64,000 nucleotides of DNA from a virus, in IMG/VR virus record IMGVR_UViG_3300007734_000760, positions 1 to 64,000 of that record; one strand, given 5' to 3'. Within the stretch, counting starts at the first letter, position 1. Each line of letters opens with the position of its first letter. Below the pieces are notes generated by a model, which was not told where the DNA came from, did not search any database, and was given only the letters and a program-made list of their open reading frames with translations. A program made the position numbers and the translations under genes. This document shows positions 5,953 to 53,926 of this stretch, one piece after another.

Positions 5953-6546
5953 TTATTTTACTTCATATTCTGTAAAATTAGTTTTTGTAGGTTTAATATT
6001 TGGTAAATAATATTGATATGTTTTCTTTGAGTTTTGTAAATATATTGTTTTATAGAATCCTGTTGGAATAGTAGCTCCGGTTGGTAATTTATGATTAAAA
6101 TCAGTGAAAACTATTCTTATAGTAACAGATACAGCTTCACTCTTTGCCCATTCTCTTTCTTGTGCTTCTAACATTTTCCACACACCTCTATTTAAGTATT
6201 GGTTTTGTAAAGCACAATTAACATAAGAGAATGTTTTGTATAACATTTCTTTTGTGCAATTAAAGTCTGCTGCTGGAGCCATGTGACCTTTATCATACAC
6301 ATTATCTACATAGTCTTTTGCATCTGAAGTGTGTATACTCTTGTCAGTGTAAAAATCCATACCAGTTCTTGATGCGGTACCATTAGGACATTTTACTATG
6401 TATTTAATCCATAAAGGTTGTTCTAGTTTTTCAGAGTATGAAACAGTATAAATATCTGTTGATACTAATACGCTATCTTTTTGTTGACTGTAAGAATTTA
6501 AATTTAGTAATGTAAATAAAACAAATATTTTATTTAACATACTCAT
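5953..6546 (-). CDS. Secreted DNA/RNA non-specific endonuclease (NUC1)
   Basis: A signal peptide (residues 1-20, ending SYSQ) precedes a NUC1 nuclease fold. The catalytic DxGH motif is DKGH at 85-88 with His88 as base; Asn119 and Glu127 in LNRGVWKMLE are the expected metal-binding and active-site helix. The enzyme cuts DNA and RNA without sequence preference. The signal peptide means it acts in the periplasm or after lysis. It overlaps the endolysin gene by 17 bases, so it is made with the lysis proteins. Length (197 aa) is short for the family, but the core is complete. Confidence 0.82.
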   Translation of the reverse strand: MSMLNKIFVLFTLLNLNSYSQQKDSVLVSTDIYTVSYSEKLEQPLWIKYIVKCPNGTASRTGMDFYTDKSIHTSDAKDYVDNVYDKGHMAPAADFNCTKEMLYKTFSYVNCALQNQYLNRGVWKMLEAQEREWAKSEAVSVTIRIVFTDFNHKLPTGATIPTGFYKTIYLQNSKKTYQYYLPNIKPTKTNFTEYEVK

Positions 6547-7141
6547 AATACTTTAATGTTAAAGCTTTTCTATGATCTAATCCTAATGTACCACCATTAA
6601 TACGTTTTGTTAAAGCAGTAATTGATGCAACATCAATACCTTTATCACAAATAGTCCATAATTTGTTTTTATCAAAGAAAAACATAGCTGACTCAAAAGC
6701 ATATTCGTTTGCTACTAAATCAGGATTAACTAATATCTCAGGTTTATTTAAGTATTTAGAAAAAGCAGTATAGTTTTCTTTACCAGTTAATTGTAAAGCA
6801 CCTCTACCTCTAAATTTCCAACCTTCTCCACTTGCCTCATCACCATTACCCATTCTATTACCATAAACACGATTTGCAATCTTTTCTGGGTTACGAGCGT
6901 ATCCTTCTGCTAATGTACCAGGAAAGTATTTACCAAATATTTTTTTAAGTCCATCTGTTGAGTAACTTAGGTTTTCTGAAAATACTTTGTATTCTCCTGT
7001 CTCATGTGCTGTTTGAGCAAAAAAGTGAGCAGCACGTAGTGGTGTAAGTTTATAAAAAGCCATTGCCGCTTTTAAAGTTCCAGGTCCAAAAGCTCCGTCA
7101 GCAGTGACACCTATTTTAGTTTGTAATGCTTTAATACTCAT
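6530..7141 (-). CDS. GH19 chitinase-type endolysin
   Basis: Residues 1-30 (LQTKIGVTADGAFGPGTL) resemble a short peptidoglycan-binding repeat; the rest is a GH19 lysozyme domain with AHETGE (catalytic Glu47) and the FRGRGALQLTG signature at 110-120. GH19 endolysins cleave the glycan strand of peptidoglycan. There is no signal peptide, so release would depend on a holin, and two holin-like genes lie directly upstream. Confidence 0.88.
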   Translation of the reverse strand: MSIKALQTKIGVTADGAFGPGTLKAAMAFYKLTPLRAAHFFAQTAHETGEYKVFSENLSYSTDGLKKIFGKYFPGTLAEGYARNPEKIANRVYGNRMGNGDEASGEGWKFRGRGALQLTGKENYTAFSKYLNKPEILVNPDLVANEYAFESAMFFFDKNKLWTICDKGIDVASITALTKRINGGTLGLDHRKALTLKYYEYVK

Positions 7142-25152: not shown

Positions 25153-25611
25153 TTATTCTGGTAAAACTTCAATGTAAGATAAAGCTTCCATAAAGTCTTT
25201 CATTTCAAAAGATTTTATAGTAGTCATATCCATTCTCCATTCATAAAATTCTCCTGGTTTATTTTTTATTGGATATTTTTCTTTTTCTGTTTCTTCTACT
25301 TTAACAGCTTTTACTCCAGCCCACTTAGCATTTTCTTTATTTGTACCATTATAAAATACCATTCCGTTTTGAGGTAAATTAATAGTTACAGGCATCCATA
25401 CTTTTCCATCTTTGTCTGTAAAGAGTACATCTTTATAAAGATCAGGTAATATTTCTATTTGTTGATTATAAAATTCTTCTCCTTCTTTCATTAAAGAATT
25501 TGTTGTAAACCCACAACCAAAACAAGAATATGTTTTGATTGTAGGAGAGTTTTCAGTTACATAGCAAGCATCTGAGTTGCAATGTGAACATATAATTAAG
25601 TTATCGTTCAT
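25153..25611 (-). CDS. Zinc-ribbon protein, 152 aa
   Basis: CSHCNSDAC (8-16) and CFGCG (30-34) form a four-cysteine zinc ribbon, and the rest is an alpha/beta domain (WMPVTINLPQNGMVFYNG, WRMDMTTIKSFEM). Proteins like this occur in large marine phages without known function; nucleic-acid binding is possible. It overlaps the GT4 gene by one base. Confidence 0.65.
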   Translation of the reverse strand: MNDNLIICSHCNSDACYVTENSPTIKTYSCFGCGFTTNSLMKEGEEFYNQQIEILPDLYKDVLFTDKDGKVWMPVTINLPQNGMVFYNGTNKENAKWAGVKAVKVEETEKEKYPIKNKPGEFYEWRMDMTTIKSFEMKDFMEALSYIEVLPE

Positions 25612-26897
25612 TATATTTTAGTTAATTTAGGTAATTTAAGTTGAATTTGTTTAGGAAACTCAGGTAATTTATTTAATTCTAATTTAATAACCTTTTTCAT
25701 AGCATCAAAACTAAATTTTTCAATATTTAATTCAGTTTGTTTACGAGCGCTAGGTAAATATTTATCATAATTTTTAAATACATCATTTAATGTTTCTCCT
25801 ATTTCTGAAAAGTTTGGACTAAACCAAGAACTTTCTTTAAGTAAAAACTGATTTGCTACTGAAGGGTGTACTAGTGTTAGTGTTCCATCAATTAAAGTAG
25901 TATACTGTTTACTTAAAAAATCAATATGTCCACTCCAATTTGTTGCTATAATTGGTTTTTTAACTAAACTAAATTCAAGTAATGGACGACCAAAACCTTC
26001 ACCTTTAGTTAATGAAACCATTGCTTTTACTTTTGGATGATTATATAATTCATTAATTTCAGTATCTGAAAAATCACCATGTAATAAATAAATATTAGGT
26101 AACAATTTAGAATTTACTGTGTTTTTAATCGCATTAATCATTTTTAAGATATTTTCTCTATCCATATATGAATTAACAGCACTTGATGTTTTAAGAATTA
26201 AAGCAGGCATATTTGCACTTGATTTATTTTTAAATGTTTCAAAAAATGCTTTAATTAATAATCCTACATTTTTTCTATCTTCACCTATTGGAGCTTGAAT
26301 ATTTATCCAGTGACCTACAAATAAATAACAAAATGATTCTTTAATATCTTTTAAATCAATATTAGTAATATCTTTTGCTTCAAGTATTTTATAAGTATTT
26401 AAATCAGCTCCTTCAAATACTACTTCTATTGGTTTTTCTAATTGAACTATCCCTACTACTTTTCCAGATTGATCTTTTTTCTCAAATTTAGAATTTTCAA
26501 ATACGTTTTTAGAGTGTTGAGATGAAATCCATGTTGTATTCATTCTATTTACTCCTTCAATCCATTCTGGTGGGCAAATAGTTGATTCAATTCCAGCTGT
26601 AACTCCGATATTATATTTTCCTAATGTTTGAAATTCATTAGGTACTGTTATTTGTATCCAAGTATCAGGTTGAGTATTTATTTGAGATGAATCTACAGTG
26701 TATTCATTTAAAAATAACCATTCTGGGTTATCATTAATGAATCCCCAACTGCAATCACCCCAACGTTGAGGAAGAATTTTTATATTCCATTCATCTTTTT
26801 TTAATTCAATAATGGCTTTAACTAAATCTCGAGAACGAGCTCCGTAACCACTATAAGTGTCAATAGGACAACTTATTACACATAACGATTTATTCAT
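25611..26897 (-). CDS. Family 4 (GT-B) glycosyltransferase, 428 aa
   Basis: GYGARSRDLVKAII at the N-terminus and the C-terminal SLTKGEGFGRPLLE (with the E-x7-E arrangement that binds the nucleotide sugar) identify a GT-B glycosyltransferase. It follows a second GT4 enzyme by ten bases. The acceptor may be a glycan, a virion protein or modified DNA; nothing in the sequence decides. Confidence 0.83.
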   Translation of the reverse strand: MNKSLCVISCPIDTYSGYGARSRDLVKAIIELKKDEWNIKILPQRWGDCSWGFINDNPEWLFLNEYTVDSSQINTQPDTWIQITVPNEFQTLGKYNIGVTAGIESTICPPEWIEGVNRMNTTWISSQHSKNVFENSKFEKKDQSGKVVGIVQLEKPIEVVFEGADLNTYKILEAKDITNIDLKDIKESFCYLFVGHWINIQAPIGEDRKNVGLLIKAFFETFKNKSSANMPALILKTSSAVNSYMDRENILKMINAIKNTVNSKLLPNIYLLHGDFSDTEINELYNHPKVKAMVSLTKGEGFGRPLLEFSLVKKPIIATNWSGHIDFLSKQYTTLIDGTLTLVHPSVANQFLLKESSWFSPNFSEIGETLNDVFKNYDKYLPSARKQTELNIEKFSFDAMKKVIKLELNKLPEFPKQIQLKLPKLTKI

Positions 26898-29544: not shown

Positions 29545-29892
29545 TTATTTTTTCCACAATCCTCTCTCTACTAATTGAGCTATAATACCATAATTAGTAA
29601 TATCTTGATATGTGTCAGTTAATGCTTCATTTTTAGCTACTTGTTTAGTTACAATAAGATTTTTCCATCTACTTACTTTATCATTTAATCTAAAAAATAA
29701 ACCTGTTAAAGCGAATTGTTTTTCTTCATCGTTTGCTAATTGTGTACCTGCTGCTACATTAGTTAAACCATAGTCTAAATGTTTTTGAGCAAACAAAGTA
29801 TATTGTTCTTTAATTATTTGTTTGTATCCTTGAGCAATTGTAGGATATTCTTTTTCTAGCTGTTCAATAACAGACATTTCTTCTTTAGCCAT
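29545..29892 (-). CDS. Nmad1 (DUF1599) family protein, 115 aa
   Basis: KHLDYGLTNV, FFRLNDKVSRWKNL and DTYQDITNYGIIAQL match the DUF1599 pattern, renamed nucleotide modification associated domain 1 because it occurs beside phage base-modification genes. The biochemical role is not proven. Its presence agrees with a modified genome (see the 7-deazaguanine genes). It overlaps the gp62-like gene by eight bases. Confidence 0.75.
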   Translation of the reverse strand: MAKEEMSVIEQLEKEYPTIAQGYKQIIKEQYTLFAQKHLDYGLTNVAAGTQLANDEEKQFALTGLFFRLNDKVSRWKNLIVTKQVAKNEALTDTYQDITNYGIIAQLVERGLWKK

Positions 29893-31551: not shown

Positions 31552-31794
31552 TTAATAATCACCGTAAATGTTAAATTTTTTAGGTGGTTCAGGAGTAATT
31601 TCTTCAGTTGATATCATATGTAATTCACCTTTTAGCGGTGAAAGTCTAAAATCACATCCTACTCCTGATTTTTTGAAATATGCTTCTAATGTTTCAGTTA
31701 ATGAAGTATAAACTTTATCTTCATTAAGTAGCGACCAGCGGTCCCCAGGTGGGACACGCTTCGCTATTAATATATTTTTTTCTACTTGTTCCAT
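31552..31794 (-). CDS. Hypothetical protein, 80 aa
   Basis: RVPPGDRWSLLNEDKVYTSL and VGCDFRLSPLKG are the most ordered-looking stretches. Not recognised. It follows groEL by one base and ends just before the gp44 promoter, so it belongs to the groES-groEL unit. Confidence 0.55.
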   Translation of the reverse strand: MEQVEKNILIAKRVPPGDRWSLLNEDKVYTSLTETLEAYFKKSGVGCDFRLSPLKGELHMISTEEITPEPPKKFNIYGDY

Positions 31795-31795
31795 A

Positions 31796-33433
31796 TTACA
31801 TCATACCAGCCATTCCAGCCATTGGATCACTTTGATTTTTATCTAAATTTATTTCAACAATTGCTGCTTCAGTTAATAATACTGTACCTGCTACTGATGC
31901 TGCATTTTCTAATGCGTTACGAGTAACTTTAGATGGATCAATAATACCAGCTTCTGCCATATTTACAAATGTTTCTGTTTTTAAATTATAACCTGTAAAG
32001 TTATTTTCTAAGCCCATTTGATTAATTAAACCGTAACATTCTCCTTCTGTGTAACCAGCATTAGTTAAAATTTTCATAAATGGAGCAGCACATGCTTTAT
32101 AAACAATATTTTTACCAATGTGAACATCAGAATCTAATTCGGTTCTATTTTTAGTAATAGCTTCACGAGCGTATAATAATGCTGATCCTCCACCTGGTAC
32201 AATACCTTCTTCAATCGCTGCTTTTGTGGCGTGTAAAGCATCGTCAACTCTATCTTTAGTTTCTTTCATTTCTAATTCTGAATTTCCACCTACGTGAATA
32301 ATTGCTATTCCACCTACAAATTTTGCTAAACGTTCTTGTAGTTTTTCTTTTTCAAATGCTACAGTTGATTTTTCAATTTGATTTTGTAATTCATCAATAC
32401 GCTCTTCAATTTTTTCAGTTTTACCTTTACCATCAACAAGTGTTGTTTGATCTTTAGATATTGTAACTAAACGAGCATTTCCAAACCAATCCCAAGAAAA
32501 TTTATCTAATTTCATTCCTTTTTCAGAACTAAATACTTGACCACCAGTTAACACAGCAATGTCTTCTAAAATTAATTTACGACGATCTCCAAAATCAGGA
32601 GCTTTTACTGCTGCTACTTTTAAAGTACCTCTCATTTTATTTACTACTAATGTTGATAAAGCCTCGTTGTCAATGTCTTCAGCAATGATTAATAATGATT
32701 TACCTGATGATGAAACACCTTCTAAAATTGGTAGTAAATCTTTTACTTGTGTAAATTTTCTATCTGCAATTAAAATGTACGGATCTTCTAAAGTACAAGT
32801 CATATCAGCATTGTTTGTAACAAAATAATGTGATTTATAACCACGATCAAATTGCATACCTTCTACTGTTTCTAAGTATGTGTCTCCAGATTTACTTTCT
32901 TCAATGTGAACTACTCCTTCACGTCCTACTTTTTCTATTGCTGTGGCAATTAATTTTCCAATTTCAGGATCATTATTTGATGAAATAGTTGCAATTTGTT
33001 CTAATTGATTTTCTGATGTGATATCTTTAGATATTTCTTTACGTAAACAAGTTATTACTTCTTTTACTGCTAAATCAATTCCTCTTTTAATTTCAACTGC
33101 ATTTGCTCCTTTGTCTAAATAATTTAGACCTTCATTAATAATACTTTGAGCTAACAAAGTAGAAGTAGTTGTACCATCACCTGCATTGTTTGCTGTTTTA
33201 ATAGATGCTTGTTTAATCATCTGTACTCCTAATTCTTCAATTGGATCTTCTAAATTAGAAATTTGTTTTGCAACAGTAACTCCATCTTTAGTGCTTCTTA
33301 CTTCACCATATTCTGTGTAAATAACATTTCGTCCGTTTGGACCTAAAGTAGAAGTAACAGCATTTGCTACTTTGTTAATACCCTTGACTAATTTTTTTCG
33401 GGCGTCGGACCCCGATTCTACAACTTTATTCAT
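31796..33433 (-). CDS. groEL: GroEL chaperonin
   Basis: A full-length (545 aa) group I chaperonin subunit: the ATP-binding GPNGRNV and DGVTVAK, DGTTTSTLLAQ, DDALHATKAAIEEGIVPGGG near the hinge, and a short DPMAGMAGMM tail. It folds proteins in a 14-subunit ring with GroES. Bacterial GroEL usually starts MAKxI; this one starts MNKVVESGSDARKK and its apical domain is divergent. A phage copy presumably folds virion or replication proteins or replaces the host ring. Confidence 0.96.
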   Translation of the reverse strand: MNKVVESGSDARKKLVKGINKVANAVTSTLGPNGRNVIYTEYGEVRSTKDGVTVAKQISNLEDPIEELGVQMIKQASIKTANNAGDGTTTSTLLAQSIINEGLNYLDKGANAVEIKRGIDLAVKEVITCLRKEISKDITSENQLEQIATISSNNDPEIGKLIATAIEKVGREGVVHIEESKSGDTYLETVEGMQFDRGYKSHYFVTNNADMTCTLEDPYILIADRKFTQVKDLLPILEGVSSSGKSLLIIAEDIDNEALSTLVVNKMRGTLKVAAVKAPDFGDRRKLILEDIAVLTGGQVFSSEKGMKLDKFSWDWFGNARLVTISKDQTTLVDGKGKTEKIEERIDELQNQIEKSTVAFEKEKLQERLAKFVGGIAIIHVGGNSELEMKETKDRVDDALHATKAAIEEGIVPGGGSALLYAREAITKNRTELDSDVHIGKNIVYKACAAPFMKILTNAGYTEGECYGLINQMGLENNFTGYNLKTETFVNMAEAGIIDPSKVTRNALENAASVAGTVLLTEAAIVEINLDKNQSDPMAGMAGMM

Positions 33434-33444
33434 TTGTTTTGATT

Positions 33445-33744
33445 TTAATCGTTAATAATTGCTAATACTTGGTTTTCATTACACCCAAGATATTCTACTC
33501 CTTCACTTTCAATCTTAACAGGACCCATTGGAGGCAAAATTACTTTTTGTCCTACTTTAAGTGTAGTTGGGATAAATGCTCCTGTTACAGTATAAGAACC
33601 TTCACCAACAGATACAATAGTACCTGATAAGTGTTTTTCTTTTCCTAAATCTGGAACTACGATTGAACCATAAGTTGTTTCCTCTTCTTCATGAGGTTTA
33701 ACAATGATGCTGTTAAATACAGCTTGTAACTTTATTTTTTCCAT
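33445..33744 (-). CDS. groES: GroES co-chaperonin
   Basis: A 99-residue protein with YGSIVVPDLGKEKHLSGTIV as mobile loop and following strand, GQKVILPPMGPV as roof segment and YLGCNENQVLAII at the end. It caps the GroEL ring and is encoded 11 bases upstream of it. The mobile loop differs from the bacterial GGIVLP type, as in phage co-chaperonins. An AT-rich element lies about 13 bases before the start. Confidence 0.9.
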   Translation of the reverse strand: MEKIKLQAVFNSIIVKPHEEEETTYGSIVVPDLGKEKHLSGTIVSVGEGSYTVTGAFIPTTLKVGQKVILPPMGPVKIESEGVEYLGCNENQVLAIIND

Positions 33745-34768: not shown

Positions 34769-37341
34769 AACTTTTTAACATTTGGATTAAGAGTTGGAAA
34801 CTCCCACTTTAAATCATTATACAACGATTTTAATTTATTAGCTAATAATGAGTCAAATATTTCCTCAACATCAATATATGTTTTAACAAATTCTTCTATT
34901 TCGGGGGGCACTTGGGCATTTGGAACACCTATTGTTTCTATGTTAAATGGATTTTGTTTTAAATTAATTACAAATAATTTATCTCCTTCAATAATAGATT
35001 CATATTTTTTGTCTAACTTTTTAAATTTAAGTAAATCATTGTAACGAACCGCAGCTTTTGTGTTAAAAGGCGCTTTTAATTTAAATCGACTAAATATTTC
35101 TCCAGTGTTTGCTTTAATTTGATAATTTGTTATTTGTTTTACTCCTGTAGGTTTGCCTAGTACTTTAGGATCTAATGTTTTAAGTGATTTATAAAAGTCA
35201 ACTATTGAATTGTCTATTTCAGTTTTATCTTTACCAAATAAAACATTCTTAATAAAGTCTTCACCAAACTTTTTAAATAATTTATTCATGTTAGACTTCA
35301 TTAATTCAAGTCCTTTCATGTCTAATTCATCAACTGGTACTCCTTCTTTGTTAGTAACGTACATTGCATAACGACGTTTACCTGTAGTTAATACTCCAGC
35401 ACATATTACTTCTTGTTTTAGTTGAAAATGGTGAGTATCTGGAGTTATGTTAAATAAACGCTTACTTAACTCATTTAAATAAAAATTAGCATCATTTTGG
35501 ATTTCTTGAGCTAATGTTAATATAAAATTATTTTTTTCTTCAGGTTTAAAATTTGGATGTCTAAATTTAAGTAAATCACCTAACACAATGTATAATGAAT
35601 CAGTATCTGAAATGCAAATATTTTGTTTTTCTTCTTTTATTTCAGTATTAATTTTATCATTTACAAACACAATAGATTCTTGTGTTAATCTTTGACCACT
35701 GTTAGTTATAGCAGCACTACAAATTAAATGTCCATCAGTGTATCTCCAACCGTTTTTAGCAAATGTACCATACATTGCGTTCTGTAAAATCTTAAATGAA
35801 TGTTGAAATAAATCATATAATTTATAATTTGCCCAATCCTCTGCTTTACCAGCTGTTTTCTTTAGTCCTCTATAGTGCTCTCGTTTTTCAAACCAACCTG
35901 CTAAAATAGTTGACACAACACTTTTTTCATTAGTGTCAAATATAGCTCCAGAGGCAGCAATTGTGTAATCATTTTGTTCAATTAAATTAATTACATCTTT
36001 TAATTTTACTTGTGCTGCTTTTAAAGTATAATTCTTTTTATTTAATTTTTCAATTATAATTAGTTCTTCAGGATTTCTTTCTTTAAGTTTTTCTAATGAA
36101 TGATTTTGTTCATAAGTTGGATTATCTTCTATTTTAATTCTACCTATTAGTGTTTCAATGCCTAAATTAAGTGATTTAATAATAGATGGATACAGTGATG
36201 TAAAGTCTAAGTCAATAACATCAAAATACAAACCAGGTATTGGTTCTAGTAAATACCCACCAGCATAAGATATATTCACCGCTTTTAAAGCGGGATTATG
36301 AGTAGTTGGCTTATTTGGTGATATTATACCTTCTCGTTTTAAATGTTTTAATATTGCGCCTTCATTCATAACTGTATTATAATACACACTTTCATAAGGT
36401 ATATTACAAATATGAGAAATCATTATTGTTAATTCGATAAATTTTAATTTTTCTTCTAATTTCTCAATAATTTCAACATCACGTAAGTTATAGTCTATAA
36501 AACGATTTATGTCATTTTTAAATAAAGTATTTAAATTACCTTCATATTCTACTTTACCTAAATTAACATATTTAGTTCCTATGTCTCCTAATTTATATGA
36601 TGATTCTTCCTTCATAATGTACTTTTTATGAAGTAACATATAGTCTAAGTGATTTATTCCTCCTATAGTTACTTGTAAAGCACCTGCAAATTCTCTAAAA
36701 CTTACTTTTCTAATAGGAGACATTCTGTTTATTTCATTTTCACCTAATATTTGTTTAATTCTAAAGTACATATAAGGAATGTCAAAGTAAGCTGAATTGT
36801 ATCCTACTACTATTGTTGGATCTAATTCTTCCCATTTGTCTAAGAATTTTTTAACTAATTCTTTTTCTGAGTAGCAAGGAATAATATGTTTACCATCTTG
36901 AATTGTTTCTTGTATTTCTTTACTTTTATCTACAATAAAACAAATATATTGTTTAGTAGTAACATCTCTTAAAGCAATAGATGTGATAGGCATAGGAGCA
37001 GCTTTAATATATTCAGGTGTTAAAGCACCTCCCATTTCAATCTCAATGTCTAAATAAACAATGTTATGCCAAGAAGGAACAACATCATCTAATTTATAAT
37101 ATAGCTCTCGTAATACTAATAATGATTTATCAATGTCCTTTTCTAGTAAATTAGGATCTTCTTTGTCTAATTTTTTAGTAGGAACAGCCCATCCTCCAGT
37201 TAAAACAGGTTGAGCATTTTCTTGCCATTTATCAACACGTTTCCAATAAGTTGGTTGATATTGAAATTCAGACCAACCAATTTCATCATCACGAAGATAA
37301 TAAGTATAGGTTTTAAAATCGTAGTAAACACTTTGATACAC
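34753..37341 (-). CDS. Family B DNA polymerase (gp43-like)
   Basis: Exonuclease motifs: DIE (Asp98, Glu100), VGYNSAYFDIPY and YNLRDVEIIEKL. Polymerase motifs: A DLDFTSLYPSII, B KILQNAMYGTF, C ISDTDSLYI, then KRRYAMYV. At 862 residues it is a complete replicative polymerase with proofreading, matching T4 gp43 in size (898). It overlaps the MazG-like gene by one base and precedes the clamp gene. Confidence 0.97.
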   Translation of the reverse strand: MYQSVYYDFKTYTYYLRDDEIGWSEFQYQPTYWKRVDKWQENAQPVLTGGWAVPTKKLDKEDPNLLEKDIDKSLLVLRELYYKLDDVVPSWHNIVYLDIEIEMGGALTPEYIKAAPMPITSIALRDVTTKQYICFIVDKSKEIQETIQDGKHIIPCYSEKELVKKFLDKWEELDPTIVVGYNSAYFDIPYMYFRIKQILGENEINRMSPIRKVSFREFAGALQVTIGGINHLDYMLLHKKYIMKEESSYKLGDIGTKYVNLGKVEYEGNLNTLFKNDINRFIDYNLRDVEIIEKLEEKLKFIELTIMISHICNIPYESVYYNTVMNEGAILKHLKREGIISPNKPTTHNPALKAVNISYAGGYLLEPIPGLYFDVIDLDFTSLYPSIIKSLNLGIETLIGRIKIEDNPTYEQNHSLEKLKERNPEELIIIEKLNKKNYTLKAAQVKLKDVINLIEQNDYTIAASGAIFDTNEKSVVSTILAGWFEKREHYRGLKKTAGKAEDWANYKLYDLFQHSFKILQNAMYGTFAKNGWRYTDGHLICSAAITNSGQRLTQESIVFVNDKINTEIKEEKQNICISDTDSLYIVLGDLLKFRHPNFKPEEKNNFILTLAQEIQNDANFYLNELSKRLFNITPDTHHFQLKQEVICAGVLTTGKRRYAMYVTNKEGVPVDELDMKGLELMKSNMNKLFKKFGEDFIKNVLFGKDKTEIDNSIVDFYKSLKTLDPKVLGKPTGVKQITNYQIKANTGEIFSRFKLKAPFNTKAAVRYNDLLKFKKLDKKYESIIEGDKLFVINLKQNPFNIETIGVPNAQVPPEIEEFVKTYIDVEEIFDSLLANKLKSLYNDLKWEFPTLNPNVKKFFAFQ

Positions 37342-37814
37342 TAGAAAAATTTCTTAAGATCTGGTTTGAAATAATTTATTGATTTCATTACTTTCATATC
37401 ATCTCTATAGACAATCCAATTGTCTCCTACTTTTACATAATGGCATGGACGACCTTGTTCAGCAGAACGTTTAATAACTGTTAAACGTGCTTCTTCTTCA
37501 GTTTTACAAACTTTAGATAAATTAGATGCTTGTACTTCAGCATAACCTTCTTCAATTTTGTCTTTTAAACCAAATACTAAAGCTCCATTTCCTAATCCTA
37601 CATAAGTAATATCTAAAATAGCATCAAGTACTCCTACAATATTGTTTTCTTCTACTGCTTGTTTTAATTCATCAAGTTCTTCTTGAATAAAATTAATTAC
37701 AAAATCAGCATCTGATTTATCAATAGTTGGAGTGGTTCTATTTTGCCACTCTTTACCCATTATAATGTTAAACTCCTCTACTTCGGAGATAAACGGTACG
37801 TGTTTTTTTTCCAT
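37341..37814 (-). CDS. MazG-like NTP pyrophosphohydrolase
   Basis: EELDELKQAVEE and DAILDITYVGLG give the EExxE and ExxD-type metal sites of all-alpha NTP pyrophosphatases, and VQASNLSKV is typical of the phage form. Such enzymes hydrolyse nucleotide triphosphates to monophosphates and may adjust pools or alarmones. The C-terminal 60 residues extend beyond the usual domain. Confidence 0.8.
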   Translation of the reverse strand: MEKKHVPFISEVEEFNIIMGKEWQNRTTPTIDKSDADFVINFIQEELDELKQAVEENNIVGVLDAILDITYVGLGNGALVFGLKDKIEEGYAEVQASNLSKVCKTEEEARLTVIKRSAEQGRPCHYVKVGDNWIVYRDDMKVMKSINYFKPDLKKFF

Positions 37815-39967: not shown

Positions 39968-40600
39968 TTAAAATTTAGTGCCATTCATTTCAATAGCGTG
40001 TAAAAATTCTTCTCTAATCATATTACTTTTTTCCATAAATACGCCACTAAATTTATTTGTAGTCATTACAGATGGATGTTTAATTCCTCTATGTGAACAA
40101 CAAGTGTGTTTACAAGCAACACTTACTGCTACAGATCTACATTCCATTTTATTAGCTATATAATCATGAATTTGTTGTGTTAATGATTCTTGCATTTGTG
40201 GTCTACGAGCAAACCATTCTACAATACGATTTAGTTTTGATAAACCAATTACTTTTTCACTAGGCACATAAGCTACAGTAGCAAATCCTGTAAATGCTAA
40301 ATTATGGTGAGCACACATACTAGTAATAGGAATACCTGATTGAATTACTAATCCATCATAATTTTCATCATTTGGAAAAGTAGTAATGTTTGGTTCATTT
40401 GACACTGATCCTACAATTAAGTCTTTTAACCATGCTTTTGCTACTCGACGTGGTGTATCTTCTGTTTGTTTATCAGCTGTAAAATCAAAACCTACTGCTT
40501 TTAAAAAATGTCCATAATGTAATTCAGCTTCACTAATCATTTGTTCTATTTCTTCCGGAGTACGAGCTATACTACCATTTGATTTTTTTAATAATTCCAT
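39968..40600 (-). CDS. folE: GTP cyclohydrolase I
   Basis: MCAHHNLAFTG, PSEKVIGLSKLNRIVEWFARRPQ split over the active site, and HTCCSHRG hold the zinc-binding Cys/His residues of FolE. The enzyme opens GTP to 7,8-dihydroneopterin triphosphate, the first step to 7-deazaguanines as well as folate. With queD, queE and queC in the same unit it most likely feeds DNA modification. It is the first gene behind a conserved promoter. Confidence 0.96.
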   Translation of the reverse strand: MELLKKSNGSIARTPEEIEQMISEAELHYGHFLKAVGFDFTADKQTEDTPRRVAKAWLKDLIVGSVSNEPNITTFPNDENYDGLVIQSGIPITSMCAHHNLAFTGFATVAYVPSEKVIGLSKLNRIVEWFARRPQMQESLTQQIHDYIANKMECRSVAVSVACKHTCCSHRGIKHPSVMTTNKFSGVFMEKSNMIREEFLHAIEMNGTKF

Positions 40601-40616
40601 TTTTTATTTTATTTAA

Positions 40617-40649
40617 TTAAATATAAGTATTTTATTTTTGGAAGCCTAA
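40617..40649 (-). promoter_or_regulatory. Conserved promoter (variant -33) for folE
   Basis: TAGGCTT (40648-40642) and TATATTTAA (40625-40617), spacer 16 bases, 16 bases before folE. Confidence 0.72.
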
Positions 40650-40651
40650 CT

Positions 40652-41428
40652 TTATACTCCTCTTTTATCATTATAAGCTACAATGTGAGCTCTTCCAGTA
40701 AAATTATATCCTCTTTTAATACACTCCTCCATCACATAAGGATAGTTGGGTTGTAGTTTGTCTAAAGTATCTCCTGCAGGCATAACCCATACTTTGTTTT
40801 TAGGTATGCTGTGTGTTGTAATAAACTCTTCTATTTCATTCCATACTTCAGGATCATTTCTATCTACAACTGGTTTGAAATGATAATCTAAATGATAGCT
40901 TAACATGTTTTTAATTGCTTCATGATTCATTCTAAACTTGTTATGTTGTGTAATAATCTTTTCATCTACAGCTACTCCTAATGGTGTTTCAGTTCCTAAT
41001 TTTGGAATTGAGTTTTTAAACTTAGGTGATAATGATATTAAATCTATTTTATAATTAGTTTCAACAAAATGACTTCCTTCAGTCTCTATTGTAACATGCA
41101 TTGATCTCATGTTCTTAGCCATAGTGACTAATTCATCTATTAACTTAGGATGCATAGTTGGAGAACCACCTGATATCATTAAATGATTGATTTGTGGATT
41201 AGTTTCAAATAATTCTTTAATAGCGTTAAGAGTCCAAGTTCCTTTTTCTGGATGAATACTTGTATACCAAGAATCACACCATCCTCCTTCACCAAAATAA
41301 CATCTGTGAGTACAGCCTGTTGTTCTAATTAAAAAGTTAGGATATCCTGCTTTTGAACCTTCAGTTTGAACACAAGTATATGCTTCAATGATAGGTTGAA
41401 TCTTATTGTAATCTAATTTATTTTCCAT
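40652..41428 (-). CDS. queE: 7-carboxy-7-deazaguanine synthase (QueE)
   Basis: A radical SAM enzyme: RTTGCTHRC...WC gives Cys39, Cys43 and Cys51, and HLMISGGSPTMH corresponds to the GGEP motif. QueE converts carboxytetrahydropterin to carboxydeazaguanine. The cysteine spacing is CX3CX7C rather than CX3CX2C, so the loop over the cluster is longer. Pathway neighbours make the assignment strong. Confidence 0.9.
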   Translation of the reverse strand: MENKLDYNKIQPIIEAYTCVQTEGSKAGYPNFLIRTTGCTHRCYFGEGGWCDSWYTSIHPEKGTWTLNAIKELFETNPQINHLMISGGSPTMHPKLIDELVTMAKNMRSMHVTIETEGSHFVETNYKIDLISLSPKFKNSIPKLGTETPLGVAVDEKIITQHNKFRMNHEAIKNMLSYHLDYHFKPVVDRNDPEVWNEIEEFITTHSIPKNKVWVMPAGDTLDKLQPNYPYVMEECIKRGYNFTGRAHIVAYNDKRGV

Positions 41429-41445
41429 TTATTATATTTTTTATT

Positions 41446-42015
41446 TTAAATTGCTGCAAATCTTACCATACATCCTATGTATCCTATTGGTCTATATTCT
41501 TCAGGATTATCCAATACTTTTTCTAACATATTACGAATCATTTGTTTATCATCTTCATATGTTCTTACCGGAGCATCAATGTCTTGAGGAAAATCAGGTG
41601 ACCAAGATATAGTAATACTTTGTTTAGGCTCAAATGTTTCTGAATCGTATATTGTGGGTGCAAATACACACCCATCTTTTACTGGTTTGTACATTTCTCC
41701 TGATTGATACATTTTTGGTGTAAATCCTACAGTGTAAACATATCCTACTTTATGTTTATAAGTTGGATTTTCTAAATCAGATATTCTTATAGATTTCACA
41801 ACAAATGGTGTTTTTCCGTCTTCTGCAATACCTGCAGGCAACTCTATCCATATAATTTTATCAAACTCAAAATGTTTAATTAGTTGTACTTCAATTTGAA
41901 CACGCTGTTCTTCGGTTAAATTGTTTACACCATATACTCCTGAAAAAGGTGTTAGTGGGTCAACTTTACTGCTTTCACATATTGATAATAGTTTTTCTGT
42001 TAAATTTGATTTCAT
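41446..42015 (-). CDS. Unknown protein inside the 7-deazaguanine unit, 189 aa
   Basis: I do not recognise the family. Stretches such as DKIIWIELPAGIAEDGKTPF, VGYVYTVGFTPKMYQ and ITISWSPDFPQ are ordered-looking. It lies between queE and queD in a compact operon, so a role in the pathway or in DNA modification is likely. It lacks the QueF signature, so reduction to preQ1 is not supported. Confidence 0.6.
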   Translation of the reverse strand: MKSNLTEKLLSICESSKVDPLTPFSGVYGVNNLTEEQRVQIEVQLIKHFEFDKIIWIELPAGIAEDGKTPFVVKSIRISDLENPTYKHKVGYVYTVGFTPKMYQSGEMYKPVKDGCVFAPTIYDSETFEPKQSITISWSPDFPQDIDAPVRTYEDDKQMIRNMLEKVLDNPEEYRPIGYIGCMVRFAAI

Positions 42016-42026
42016 GATTTATTTTT

Positions 42027-42104
42027 TTAATAATTTTTACCATATATGTAATTTATTTTAATGTCTCCGAATGTGGTTGTTGTAATCCAATAACTATTCT
42101 CCAT
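42027..42104 (-). CDS. Possible microprotein, 25 aa
   Basis: MENSYWITTTTFGDIKINY start; overlaps the queD stop by 11 bases and fills the gap to the next gene. Weak support, from packing only. Confidence 0.3.
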   Translation of the reverse strand: MENSYWITTTTFGDIKINYIYGKNY

Positions 42105-42561
42105 AACTTGCACTGTTTCTTTCATGTTCATAAACTTCTACTTTTACTGCTTTAACTCTTCCATTTGTTTCTTCAAACAAAAACTTATTAATTGCTTCAT
42201 ACAAATACTCAGCAAACTTTTCACATCCAGTTGCTGAAATTACTCTTAGTTGAATGATACCGTCCTTATCCATTTGAATAAACTTATCTAAATAAGGATC
42301 ATCTTGAGCTACAACAACAGTATGATCTAGAAGATAATTAAAATAGTCTTTAGGAGACATTCCATTAATTTGTGTTTTAGATCTCTTCATTCCACCAAAG
42401 TCCCATACCCAGTTTCTATAATCCAACTCACCTTCAAACCATACCCTAAAAGATATGGCATAACCATGTAAAAATTTACAATGTGTATCTTCTGCTTTCC
42501 ATTGACGAAAACAAGCACTGTATCCGTCAAATAATTTTGATGATGTAAATTTCTTATCCAT
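42094..42561 (-). CDS. queD: 6-carboxytetrahydropterin synthase (QueD)
   Basis: CKFLHGYAISFRVWFEG contains a Cys and His of the zinc site and LLDHTVVVAQDDPYLD the catalytic His/Asp; VEVYEHERNSA supplies the conserved Glu. QueD makes carboxytetrahydropterin from the FolE product. It overlaps the thioredoxin gene by eight bases. Confidence 0.88.
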   Translation of the reverse strand: MDKKFTSSKLFDGYSACFRQWKAEDTHCKFLHGYAISFRVWFEGELDYRNWVWDFGGMKRSKTQINGMSPKDYFNYLLDHTVVVAQDDPYLDKFIQMDKDGIIQLRVISATGCEKFAEYLYEAINKFLFEETNGRVKAVKVEVYEHERNSASYGE

Positions 42562-42805
42562 TGATAAATTCTTTTATTTTGTTTTCAGATTGAGTACCTA
42601 CTATACGTTTAATTTCTTGACCGTTTTCTAACAAAATTAATGTTGGAACACTTTTTACTCCATAATCAGCTGTATAAGATACATCATAATCAGTATCTAT
42701 TTTATTAATAGGAATACCCATTTGTTTACTTATTTGTTCTACTGTTGGCTTCATTGCTTGACAAGCTGAGCACCAATTTGCTGAAAAGAAAATTAATTGT
42801 TTCAT
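42554..42805 (-). CDS. Thioredoxin-like protein, 83 aa
   Basis: WCSAC (11-15) is the redox site and VPTLILLENG contains the cis-proline loop. It is short (83 aa), like phage glutaredoxin/thioredoxin proteins. It may reduce ribonucleotide reductase (nrdA/B are near) or keep QueE or QueD reduced; it overlaps queD by eight bases. Confidence 0.88.
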   Translation of the reverse strand: MKQLIFFSANWCSACQAMKPTVEQISKQMGIPINKIDTDYDVSYTADYGVKSVPTLILLENGQEIKRIVGTQSENKIKEFING

Positions 42806-42807
42806 AT

Positions 42808-43665
42808 TTATTTTTTATAGTTGTTTAAAATTACTTTAACCCACACTGCTGCTTCATCCCAAGTTCTTGGAAGAAAATCACCGTTAGGCAATACTTCAGC
42901 ATACTCAATTGGATCTGGTCTTCCTATTTTTAAAAAAGCTTCAATACGTTCTATTGAAGATGCTGATCTATAATCTGAATACCATTTATTTGTTTCTTTA
43001 ATAAAAATAGGTTTATAAGATGTATTAGTACGTTTATATACTTCATCAAAATTTAATTTTAATTTGTCACAACATTCAACTCCATCTTTTAAAATATCAA
43101 ATTTATCTCCTAATAAATAAGGTGTATAAACATTTACTTTTTCAGCACCCCAATTACCTATTTTAAATGCTTCAAAATCAATATCTCTAAATTCTTGTCT
43201 ACAATCAGGATAAATACTATGATCACCAGCATGAATTCCCATTGCTATAGAACATTCAGTATTATTTTTATCTGCTATTGATAAAGCAACAGCTTGAATA
43301 ATACTTGAAAATATTTTATTACGATTAGGTACTACTGTATCTTTCATATTTTCTTCAGCGTAATGTCCTTCAGGAACATCTGCTCCACCTTCTACTAATG
43401 TAGAATTTAATAATTGACCTAAACCATCTATTTTGATAATTTGATGTTTAATATAATGTGGATAATCTACAGTTTTAGATTCTTCATCAATTATAAATGT
43501 TCCATTTAAATATTCTACTAATTCAGTAGCTCTTTCTAATTCAATTTTATGTTTTTGACCATAATCAAATGATAAAGCAGTTACCTCGTAACCGTTTGAT
43601 AATAAGTGGAGTAGTAATGTACTACTATCCATTCCTCCACTTAATGATAATACCGCGTGTTTCAT
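42808..43665 (-). CDS. queC: 7-cyano-7-deazaguanine synthase (QueC), zinc site lost
   Basis: Start at 43665 (MKHAVLSLSGGMDSS); a longer reading overlaps the upstream gene. SGGMDSS (9-15) is the PP-loop that binds ATP, and the fold runs on with SFDYGQKH and ADVPEGHY. QueC makes preQ0 from carboxydeazaguanine. The C-terminal zinc Cys quartet of normal QueC is replaced: Ser216, Asp231, Ser234 and Ser237 stand where cysteines are expected, in the segment TSYK... to YRSASSIERIEAF. Confidence 0.88.
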   Translation of the reverse strand: MKHAVLSLSGGMDSSTLLLHLLSNGYEVTALSFDYGQKHKIELERATELVEYLNGTFIIDEESKTVDYPHYIKHQIIKIDGLGQLLNSTLVEGGADVPEGHYAEENMKDTVVPNRNKIFSSIIQAVALSIADKNNTECSIAMGIHAGDHSIYPDCRQEFRDIDFEAFKIGNWGAEKVNVYTPYLLGDKFDILKDGVECCDKLKLNFDEVYKRTNTSYKPIFIKETNKWYSDYRSASSIERIEAFLKIGRPDPIEYAEVLPNGDFLPRTWDEAAVWVKVILNNYKK

Positions 43666-43666
43666 A

Positions 43667-43927
43667 TTAAAATGGAAGTTCATATCCATCTGAATCTTTA
43701 GATTCAAATGATGGTAAATTACTATCAGCTTTAATTCCGTTAAAGTACTCTGTTAAAAAACTACGTTCATATGTTAATACTTTACCTGTATACTTAGGAT
43801 TACTTACTTCTCTTTGTTTTACAGTTTTATTTAATTCTTTAGCTTTAGCATAAACTTCTTTACCTAAAGTTCCTCCTGCTGAATGTCCTAGAAATTCAAA
43901 CAGTGATATAAATTTTTCTTCTTCCAT
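43667..43927 (-). CDS. Hypothetical protein, 86 aa
   Basis: Helical protein with GHSAGGTLGKEVYAKAKEL and a tail rich in S/D. It is the first gene behind a promoter at 43931 and is followed by queC one base later. Not recognised; because it shares the unit with queC it may belong to the modification system. Confidence 0.55.
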   Translation of the reverse strand: MEEEKFISLFEFLGHSAGGTLGKEVYAKAKELNKTVKQREVSNPKYTGKVLTYERSFLTEYFNGIKADSNLPSFESKDSDGYELPF

Positions 43928-43930
43928 AAT

Positions 43931-43963
43931 TTAAATATAATAATTATTTTTTTGTAAGCCAAA
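43931..43963 (-). promoter_or_regulatory. Conserved promoter (TTTGGCTT-N16-TATATTTAA)
   Basis: Exact boxes, TTTGGCTT (43963-43956) and TATATTTAA (43939-43931), spacer 16 bases, four bases from the start codon. Confidence 0.76.
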
Positions 43964-43965
43964 CT

Positions 43966-44760
43966 CTATAACCCATTTATTAATCTAAATAATTTTGTAT
44001 TTTTACTTAATAAATTTAAATTAACATCTTTTATATCAATATTAAAATTATCATTCATACATGACTTAGGTTTATTTATTAATCCATAACCTTTATATTC
44101 AATTCCATCTAATGTTGCCATAGTTGGATTTGATGTATCTATTGATTCAATAAAAGACATATTTTTATACCATCCAAATTCTTGAGGTACAGCACATCCT
44201 AATAAATGTACTCTATCTGTTTTATCAATAATATTTAAATTAAATAATTCAGATATTACTTTAATACGCCCCATTGCTTTACCTAAATCTTTATTTGGAT
44301 GAGGACAAAGATCATTATAATAAGATGCTCCATAACTAAATGCTATTTTTTTATATCCTAAATCTTTATATGTTTGATAACAAATTATTGCTTCATATAA
44401 ATTTTGAGCTTGTACAACTGCTACTTTAGTAACTTCTTTAGGTAAATTTACTCCAATCCATGATTTAGCATTTACTACAGACTGTGTTTTATCTTCCCAA
44501 ACATCAGGAACAATAAATTCATTTGGTTTTAATTCATTTATCCAGTATAATAAACGTTTTGTATCATAAGCAACACCTAATTCATGTAATGAATTATCCA
44601 TAATTGTATATCTACCTAACTCTTTAGATTTTATAAAGAAATTCTTATATTCTTCATATTGATCTAATAAATGAGGAAGACAATAATCGTAATTGTTAAA
44701 TTTTAAACTTTCCTCTAAAAGACATAGAGGCACTTCATGTGAGATTTTTATTTTATTCAT
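43966..44760 (-). CDS. DpdA-like transglycosylase for DNA 7-deazaguanine
   Basis: EVPLCLLEES and YCLPHLL near the start, IMDNSLHELG (53-62) and IVPDVWED (83-90) match the phage DpdA group, distant relatives of tRNA-guanine transglycosylase. GASYYN and LLGCAVPQEFGWY follow. These enzymes exchange guanine in DNA for preQ0-type bases. Asp55, Asp86 or Asp90 could be catalytic. The gene is next to queC and the other pathway genes, which supports the role. Confidence 0.75.
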   Translation of the reverse strand: MNKIKISHEVPLCLLEESLKFNNYDYCLPHLLDQYEEYKNFFIKSKELGRYTIMDNSLHELGVAYDTKRLLYWINELKPNEFIVPDVWEDKTQSVVNAKSWIGVNLPKEVTKVAVVQAQNLYEAIICYQTYKDLGYKKIAFSYGASYYNDLCPHPNKDLGKAMGRIKVISELFNLNIIDKTDRVHLLGCAVPQEFGWYKNMSFIESIDTSNPTMATLDGIEYKGYGLINKPKSCMNDNFNIDIKDVNLNLLSKNTKLFRLINGL

Positions 44761-44774
44761 AACTTTTTCTATAT

Positions 44775-44807
44775 TTAAATATAATAAACTTAATTAAGAA
44801 AGCCTAA
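44775..44807 (-). promoter_or_regulatory. Conserved promoter for the dpdA-like gene
   Basis: TTAGGCTT (44807-44800) and TATATTTAA (44783-44775), 16-base spacer, 14 bases upstream of the gene. Confidence 0.7.
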
Positions 44808-45796
44808 TAAGTAATTATATCATCATCATCATTTCTTTTTTTCTTAAAAATAGGAGGAATAAATGAAAATGGTTGTGATTTTTCTTCAAATTGTTTAGAT
44901 TGAAAAGTATTTGGAGGTAATGTTGGATTTGGTCGTTCATTATATATAGGTTCTTCTTGAGATTCTATAGGTTTTTCATTGTATATAGTAAAAGATTCAG
45001 GTGATTTTAGTTGGTTAAATGCAAAATTAGCCGCTATAACTAAACTAATAGCTAAGGGATCAAACACCATTATAATAACTAATAAAAACCAATTAATAAT
45101 TCTATCCATAGATATTCCAGTTAGTTTATTAATATATTTTAAAGGTCCTAATTCACCAGCTAGTTCAGCATTTGATTCTTTAGTTAATTTTTCTTCAGAC
45201 AGTATTAATAAAGTAGAATCTAAATTATTTATTTTACTATTTATAGTTTTTTCTTCTTTTAAAGCAAATTCAAGTTGTTTTTCATATGATTTTCTATTTG
45301 ATGAAGATGTAGTAGTTAAAATGTTTCCTTCTTTATCTTTATAAGTTTGAGTATTATTACCTAATGCTCCTCTTAGTTGAGCAATACTTTGTTGAGTTTG
45401 TTTTAATTGTTGTAAAGTAAATTCTTTACTTGATTCTTGTGTTTTTATTCTGTTATCAATTAAAGCAATTTCTTTATCTACAACACCCGTTTTATTAGCT
45501 GTATCTTGATAGCCTGAAGACAGATAACCATATATTCCAGCTGATGTAATTGCCATTAATATAATTAAAGCTAAAGTTAAATACAATTTAAGCATCCAAT
45601 TTACTTTTTTCCAATATTGATAAAGTAAAGAAGCTACTACTAATTTAGCTACTTCAAGAGATGAAGCCATCCATATAACAGCAGTTTCAGCTCCTGCAAA
45701 TAATTTTGCTAAACCTGTAACACTATAAAAAGCAGCTGCTGCACTAATTGATAGTGCAGACAGTGCTATTAAAATTGGTAGTAAGTATTTTTTCAT
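44804..45796 (-). CDS. Membrane protein with central coiled coil, 330 aa
   Basis: Hydrophobic segments near 5-35, 40-60, 68-90 and 235-262; between them a long coiled coil (about 100-215, EIALIDNRIKTQESSKE...). The end is polar and proline-rich (FIPPIFKKKRNDDDD). The layout suggests a membrane protein with a large periplasmic or cytoplasmic coil. It may anchor replication or block superinfection; both are guesses. Confidence 0.6.
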   Translation of the reverse strand: MKKYLLPILIALSALSISAAAAFYSVTGLAKLFAGAETAVIWMASSLEVAKLVVASLLYQYWKKVNWMLKLYLTLALIILMAITSAGIYGYLSSGYQDTANKTGVVDKEIALIDNRIKTQESSKEFTLQQLKQTQQSIAQLRGALGNNTQTYKDKEGNILTTTSSSNRKSYEKQLEFALKEEKTINSKINNLDSTLLILSEEKLTKESNAELAGELGPLKYINKLTGISMDRIINWFLLVIIMVFDPLAISLVIAANFAFNQLKSPESFTIYNEKPIESQEEPIYNERPNPTLPPNTFQSKQFEEKSQPFSFIPPIFKKKRNDDDDIITY

Positions 45797-53080: not shown

Positions 53081-53926
53081 TTAGTCTTCGTCTTCAAATA
53101 ATGCATCAAACTTGTCTGCTTTTGATGGTTTTGTTTCTTTTAACTTGTAATTAGATGCTTTTGGAGTAACAGTAGTTTCTTCATCTTTCCAAGGTAAATC
53201 ATTACCTGGTGTTGTTGGTTCTTCTATAGCTTCATCAGTTTCTTCTTCAGCTTCAGGATTTAAAAAGTTTTGTAATACTTCTTTTAATTTTTCAAAATCC
53301 ATTTTATATAAAGTTTGAATTTCTAAAATGTCTGGTTGTTCATTTAAGAATTTTTCTACTTCTGCTTTATTTGGACTTACTTGAGAAGTTTTAGGTTTAA
53401 TACGAATTGATGATTTAAGACCTTGACGACCACCAATGTCACCTGTTACAGCTTCAAGTGTAAAATCACGACCTTCATTAATGTCAGTATAATCACCATA
53501 ATCTTCATCATCAGCAATTCCTAATAATTGCATGTAAATTTCTTTACCAAATTCCCAAAGGCGAACACCTTTATCTTCTTCACCCCTAATAATTACTGGA
53601 GCGAAAATTCTCATTTTTGGTTCTAATTTTTTAGATAATTTCCAATTTTCTTTGTCATTGGTTGTACGAAGTTGTTTTACGAATTCTACAATTGGATCTT
53701 TTTCACCCCAATTAGTTAAAGCATAGACAGGAAATTTTGAAAATCCATAGTGTACAAACACTTCTTTAAATGGATTGCTTTTGTCTAGTTTAGAGGGAAT
53801 AATTCTAATTTGATACTTACCTTCTTGTTTTGGTTTCCATAGATATTTTGAATAATCTACTTTTTCTTTTTTCTGCCCGGATGTCTGTAAGGCACTCAGT
53901 TTGTTTTTGATTGATTTTAAATCCAT
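53081..53926 (-). CDS. Single-stranded DNA-binding protein (gp32-like)
   Basis: The core begins WKPKQEGKYQIRIIPSKLDKSNPF, as in gp32-like proteins; the end is acidic (KADKFDALFEDED), typical of SSB tails that recruit other proteins. Zinc cysteines known from T4 gp32 are not evident. 281 residues. It heads the recombination unit behind a conserved promoter. Confidence 0.85.
   Translation of the reverse strand: MDLKSIKNKLSALQTSGQKKEKVDYSKYLWKPKQEGKYQIRIIPSKLDKSNPFKEVFVHYGFSKFPVYALTNWGEKDPIVEFVKQLRTTNDKENWKLSKKLEPKMRIFAPVIIRGEEDKGVRLWEFGKEIYMQLLGIADDEDYGDYTDINEGRDFTLEAVTGDIGGRQGLKSSIRIKPKTSQVSPNKAEVEKFLNEQPDILEIQTLYKMDFEKLKEVLQNFLNPEAEEETDEAIEEPTTPGNDLPWKDEETTVTPKASNYKLKETKPSKADKFDALFEDED

Follow-up and report, generated by a model that had tools for sequence, protein, structure and literature searches.

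The window analysed here is a stretch of 64,000 nucleotides, positions 1 to 64,000 of the IMG/VR virus record IMGVR_UViG_3300007734_000760, which totals 159,934 bases. Between positions 39968 and 44760, its minus strand carries a single run of genes that we read as a pathway for placing a 7-deazaguanine base in phage DNA. In the direction of transcription, the run opens with a gene for a DpdA-like DNA-guanine transglycosylase of 264 amino acids (dpdA, 43966–44760; AlphaFold2 model, Foldseek search and 31-row alignment). It is followed by the gene of a conserved small protein of 86 amino acids (u86, 43667–43927; synteny, tail statistics and a structure model) and by a queC variant encoding 285 amino acids (42808–43665; PF06508, E=1.6e-38, and alignments). 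Next come genes for a thioredoxin of 83 amino acids with a CxxC motif (trx, 42554–42805; PF00085, E=2.5e-19, and synteny), a 6-carboxytetrahydropterin synthase-like protein (queD, 42094–42561; PF01242, E=1.5e-14; phrog_2389, E=3.8e-36) and a 189-amino-acid protein (u189, 41446–42015; synteny in 29 viral loci). The radical SAM 7-carboxy-7-deazaguanine synthase gene (queE, 40652–41428; PF04055 over cut-off; phrog_2076, E=1.8e-49) and that of GTP cyclohydrolase I (folE, 39968–40600; PF01227, E=9.6e-49) close the unit. Throughout, neighbouring genes overlap or lie at most 78 nucleotides apart. The named genes lie at the coordinates given in the initial annotation, which had placed folE, queE, queD, queC and a transglycosylase within 5 kb on one strand.

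The order dpdA-(u86)-queC-trx-queD-queE-folE is found, in varying forms, on dozens of viral contigs, and thus the cassette is not a chance arrangement. Synteny across these contigs also revealed that the thioredoxin gene is conserved within it. We consider it very probable that the unit is a self-contained phage cassette for DNA hypermodification, with 7-cyano-7-deazaguanine (preQ0) as the favoured base and 7-amido-7-deazaguanine (ADG) as the second candidate. Many metagenomes contain related contigs, so the system seems to be widespread among phages of the Flavobacterium type.

For the 264-amino-acid protein, no match to a curated family exceeded its threshold, and none of the sequence searches of PDB, Pfam and NCBIfam yielded a significant match; the one match was to an unnamed PHROG, phrog_19058. 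The comparison with the family of tRNA-guanine transglycosylases (TGTs) proposed in the initial annotation failed at the sequence level, as PF01702 had no match at E≤1 in the window genome. A fold search was therefore required. The AlphaFold2 model (predicted local distance difference test, pLDDT, 94.6; predicted template modelling score, pTM, 0.91) was compared with solved structures by Foldseek, and all of the 50 best matches listed were TGTs and the DpdA crystal structure 7ui4 (E 1e-7 to 3e-7, probability 1.00, TMq 0.56–0.64), with no unrelated fold among them. The DpdA of 7ui4 is a DNA preQ0 insertase. Among viral proteins, one from Cellulophaga phage phiST matched the model at TM 0.83. 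Together with the family matches of the que genes, this fold supports the annotation's reading of a preQ0-type pathway with a DpdA-like base exchanger.

An alignment of 31 sequences contains 38 invariant columns, including D55, H185-L-L-G188 and D208. The putative catalytic aspartates, D55 in a DNS motif and D208 in a DTSNP motif, are present in all 31. A profile alignment to 7ui4 placed VHLLGxxxPxEF...SIDxxxP in the expected catalytic register, albeit weakly (E=0.17); in it, D208 aligns with the SID motif of 7ui4, while D55 is assigned from its motif position only. The CxCxxC zinc site of TGTs is absent and the barrel is minimal. Because PF01702 does not match, the label "DpdA-like" rests on fold and motifs, and we take the modelled protein to be a minimal enzyme of the TGT/DpdA fold with a predicted base-exchange activity. 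Searches by tblastn found homologues in the Campylobacter Firehammervirus phages CP220 and CPt10 (37–38% identity) and in Flavobacterium phage immuto (36.6%). The tree of these proteins has three main groups, namely the window clade, an immuto clade with CP220 on a long branch, and a divergent clade. The DpdA3 subfamily reportedly gives complete guanine replacement (Cui 2023), and the window protein is a candidate member, as CP220-type homology suggests. Directly upstream of dpdA, at 44804–45796, lies a gene for a membrane-like protein with a central coiled coil, which is found in many relatives (38–88%) and has no clear family.

The second unusual component is QueC. Its open reading frame (ORF) reaches a TTG at 43707; relatives begin at a methionine corresponding to the ATG at 43665, which is therefore most likely the start, so that queC begins 1 nt after the u86 stop codon. 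According to a 2026 family survey (PMC13329287), QueC is defined by SGGxDS, a C(x)8CxxCxxC zinc motif and further motifs, the canonical proteins (PF06508 cluster 1) combining SGGxDS, YxQxHxxE, VPxRN, YPDC and an essential tyrosine of the zinc region. The window protein retains SGGMDS, YGQKHKIE, VPNRN, YPDC and the zinc-region tyrosine (TSY), and all four zinc cysteines are replaced (S, D, S, S) within a conserved block SDY[KR]SAS. The cysteines were likewise lost in 31 of the 35 distinct relatives of a first set, the exceptions being loci L043–L046, and a larger survey of relatives gave the same pattern. Since the C(x)8CxxCxxC motif is absent, we class the protein as a QueC-like variant, not a canonical QueC. 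Immuto QueC, 59% identical to it, shares the zinc-less state, and those of CPt10, phi38:2 and Seurat keep the cysteines. In the part of PMC13329287 available, zinc-motif loss is confined to clusters in which QueC catalytic motifs are lost or changed; as that text ties the two together, zinc loss with an intact catalytic signature appears undescribed in it. At locus L043 (4139–4846), a window-type dpdA and u86 stand beside a non-variant, cysteine-keeping QueC, a natural swap of QueC type.

The inserted base was approached through QueF. The initial annotation had recognised no QueF-like reductase, and a PF14489 search of the whole record agrees, as its sole match, below the cut-off, is FolE itself, a T-fold relative. 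Nor do eight other genomes of the window type or of clade 1, or CP220, encode QueF; weak matches in the window genome (G000), G009 and G013 were read as FolE, which position demonstrates for G000. In five records of the immuto-type clade, QueF exceeds the cut-off. In immuto and viral contigs of its clade, dpdA is followed by a formyltransferase, a kinase and QueF, and so the final base of immuto should be a preQ1 derivative. No formyltransferase was found in the window genome. Given the absence of QueF from this genome and the eight related ones, the final base here should be preQ0 or ADG. A gene at 31552–31794 encodes an 80-amino-acid protein with 41% identity to the small immuto protein immuto26A_70, which is encoded directly after QueF.

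Both bases fit, because CP220 lacks QueF and, as stated in PMC8306585 (citing Crippen 2019), 100% of dG in CP220 and CPt10 DNA is present as dADG, the deoxynucleoside of ADG. In the same pathway, a zinc-less QueC might halt at the amide, or DpdA might select ADG, as in these two phages, which encode the 37–38% homologues. ADG is, moreover, an intermediate of the QueC reaction (PMC13329287). Cysteine loss, however, is not the cause in CPt10, whose QueC keeps its zinc ligands, and zinc-less immuto QueC co-occurs with QueF, which needs preQ0. The view that a QueC without the cysteines simply signals ADG was therefore rejected. We favour preQ0 because immuto QueC, close to the window protein and also zinc-less, must supply a QueF, and we regard insertion of ADG as possible but somewhat unlikely. 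The initial view that the base is most likely preQ0 thus stands as a preference, though it is not secure. The dADG content of the Campylobacter phages also means that replacement may be complete, and by analogy this precedent suggests near-complete guanine replacement in the window phage. We consider it highly improbable that the que genes supply tRNA modification (queuosine) or a metabolite and that the 264-amino-acid protein acts on RNA instead of DNA. Its fold is common to tRNA TGTs, and FolE, QueD, QueE and QueC form the bacterial queuosine pathway; yet no QueF is encoded (no search was aimed at QueA/G/H-type genes), the CP220 relative accompanies fully substituted DNA (PMC8306585), the genome region holds phage replication and nucleotide genes, and in phages such pathways have DNA as their target (PMC6884629). 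Several points weigh against a preQ0 cassette as we propose it. By sequence, the transglycosylase has no significant match to TGTs. QueC lacks its hallmark motif, so its product could be altered or the enzyme inactive. In CP220, where a related DpdA likewise occurs without QueF, the modified nucleoside is dADG and not dPreQ0 (PMC8306585). Finally, complete replacement may not carry over, as the CP220 protein falls outside the window clade and groups, on a long branch, with that of immuto.

When viral contigs were scanned with u86 alone, queC lay beside u86 at all 33 loci and dpdA was present at 32 of them. The converse fails; a profile search left many dpdA loci without u86, and several loci combine dpdA with a zinc-less QueC and no u86. 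Such loci weaken the idea that u86 and zinc-less QueC are obligate partners, as do L043, where u86 accompanies a non-variant QueC, and L130, where the QueC is divergent. Members of the u86 family share a conserved core (about 62 residues) and a variable linker; 28 of the 48 distinct members also have an acidic tip that ends in LPF or similar (family consensus DDLPF). The window protein ends in DGYELPF and is alone in ending in [ILMVFA]PF among 505 ORFs of at least 40 amino acids in the window genome. Among 4,612 other distinct ORFs of the examined loci, a comparable tip occurs in six, five of them gp32-like single-stranded DNA-binding proteins from the phages concerned and one a small protein of no assigned function. 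This control was not aimed at single-stranded DNA-binding proteins (SSBs), and its outcome indicates that such a tip is a sign of SSB-type tails in this group of phages. The gp32-like protein of the window phage, encoded outside the unit (53081–53926, minus strand; PF08804, E=1e-12), ends in FEDED, and its homologues carry a DDLPF tip like that of u86. The SSB of Flavobacterium psychrophilum ends in DLPF (PMC3991886). The u86 tip occurs in most of the window clade and is absent from the immuto homologue and from the divergent DpdA clade, bar the long-branch locus L121. At locus L009, which has no u86, a 79-amino-acid protein of no assigned function ending in KEELPF is encoded upstream of dpdA (6350–6589).

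The structure model of u86 (pLDDT 73) comprises a compact N-terminal domain, with residues 69–81 of low confidence and the linker predicted to be disordered. A fold search with this model found no match below E=0.36. For an oligonucleotide/oligosaccharide-binding fold (OB-fold), there was no family match and no OB-fold SSB among the structure matches listed, a weak negative at such a pLDDT. On the simplest reading, u86 works together with DpdA, QueC or both and attaches to proteins whose usual ligand is the SSB tail. Alternatively, it may have no part in base exchange: its LPF tip may be a ClpXP-type degradation tag, or the protein may be a decoy that occupies SSB-binding host proteins. In certain strains of Streptococcus mutans, a C-terminal LPF does act as a ClpXP tag, but E. 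coli and other streptococci did not recognise it (PMC5143411). The match to the Flavobacterium SSB tip would suit a decoy; a general decoy, however, would not need dpdA and queC, with which the gene is almost exclusively found. We hold such an unrelated role to be doubtful. Even more tentative, and in our judgement unlikely, is an extended form of the partner reading. Here u86 would be an adaptor whose SSB-type tail recruits the minimal DpdA (and the zinc-free QueC) to single strands at replication forks, which would couple guanine exchange to replication and allow it to run to completion.

In the pathway that we propose, FolE, QueD and QueE would convert GTP to 7-carboxy-7-deazaguanine, from which the QueC variant would form ADG and preQ0. 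The minimal DpdA-family transglycosylase would then swap guanine in phage DNA, after its synthesis, for the free 7-deaza base. The exchange would probably affect a large fraction of guanine positions, or every one, and would protect the DNA from restriction. The u86 protein would act with DpdA and/or QueC, its SSB-type tip suggesting docking at replicating single-stranded DNA. The literature covered does not settle how a transglycosylase can exchange guanine on a large scale, or even completely, in a double-stranded genome; a conserved, dpdA- and queC-linked small protein with an SSB tail is a concrete, removable candidate link to DNA synthesis. If true, the adaptor reading would describe a replisome-docked base-exchange machine. 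Additionally, a zinc-less QueC with an intact catalytic signature tests the need for zinc in preQ0 or ADG synthesis.

The initial annotation had named both u86 and u189 as candidate pathway parts; the former holds up on its linkage, and the latter was rejected. The relatives of u189 occupy 29 viral loci, most of which adjoin thyA or replication genes and have no que genes; searches of families, phage records and PDB gave no convincing match, and the protein probably travels with nucleotide or replication modules as a passenger. Two loci, L082 and L092 (5001–5543, 10255–end), carry two u189-family copies each, with queC, queD, queE and thyA-like genes. The Nmad1-like gene at 29545–29892, which had been taken as a second hint of base modification, is genuine, scoring 27.2 bits with PF07659 (cut-off 25). 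It does not count as evidence for guanine modification, however: it lies within the replication module, about half of the related genomes tested do not have it, and neither do immuto and CP220. In the alignments, QueE of the window and its phage relatives has the cluster spacing CX3CX7C, compared with CX3CX2C in Seurat and CX3CX5C in phi38:2. In QueD, HGY replaces HGH and the usual first zinc histidine is missing, as in relatives; zinc-histidine motifs are also altered in the QueD of Seurat (Seuratvirus). A MazG-like nucleotide pyrophosphohydrolase (37341–37814, minus strand; PF01503 and phrog_671, synteny, immuto record annotation), whose gene has folE and DNA polymerase or dpdA as its neighbours in relatives, is possibly accessory to the pathway. 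GroEL (31796–33433) and GroES (33445–33744) genes adjoin the DNA polymerase region, and 25611–26897 encodes a glycosyltransferase-like protein (phrog_2170). The host is probably a Flavobacterium-like bacterium or another member of the Bacteroidota, judging by the Flavobacterium phage relatives; two genome contigs carry u86, and their bins do not identify a host.

The type of pathway is already known; what goes beyond the initial annotation is the zinc-less QueC and u86 with its SSB-type tip. The latter resembles the C-terminal tail of bacterial SSBs in its variable disordered linker and DDLPF tip, and differs from them in that no OB-fold was found. The phage preQ0 systems described by Hutinet et al. 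in 2019 (PMC6884629) likewise combine folE, queD, queE and queC with a transglycosylase and are without QueF. The DNA of CAjan and Rosebush contains dPreQ0, and about 28–32% of G is replaced in such systems (PMC6884629). The window differs from them in its minimal DpdA barrel unmatched by PF01702, its zinc-less QueC and the linked 86-amino-acid partner. CP220 and CPt10 share the homologous small transglycosylase (38%) and an encoded QueC, CP220 also being without QueF; their QueC, in contrast, has the zinc cysteines and is encoded far from dpdA, with no 86-amino-acid gene beside the latter. In Flavobacterium phage immuto (Immutovirus), the cluster is split in two, dpdA is followed by the formyltransferase, kinase and QueF genes, and the 86-amino-acid homologue is without the LPF tip. 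Nevertheless, immuto shares with the window the zinc-less QueC, QueD, QueE, FolE, a thioredoxin, that homologue and an annotated dpdA.

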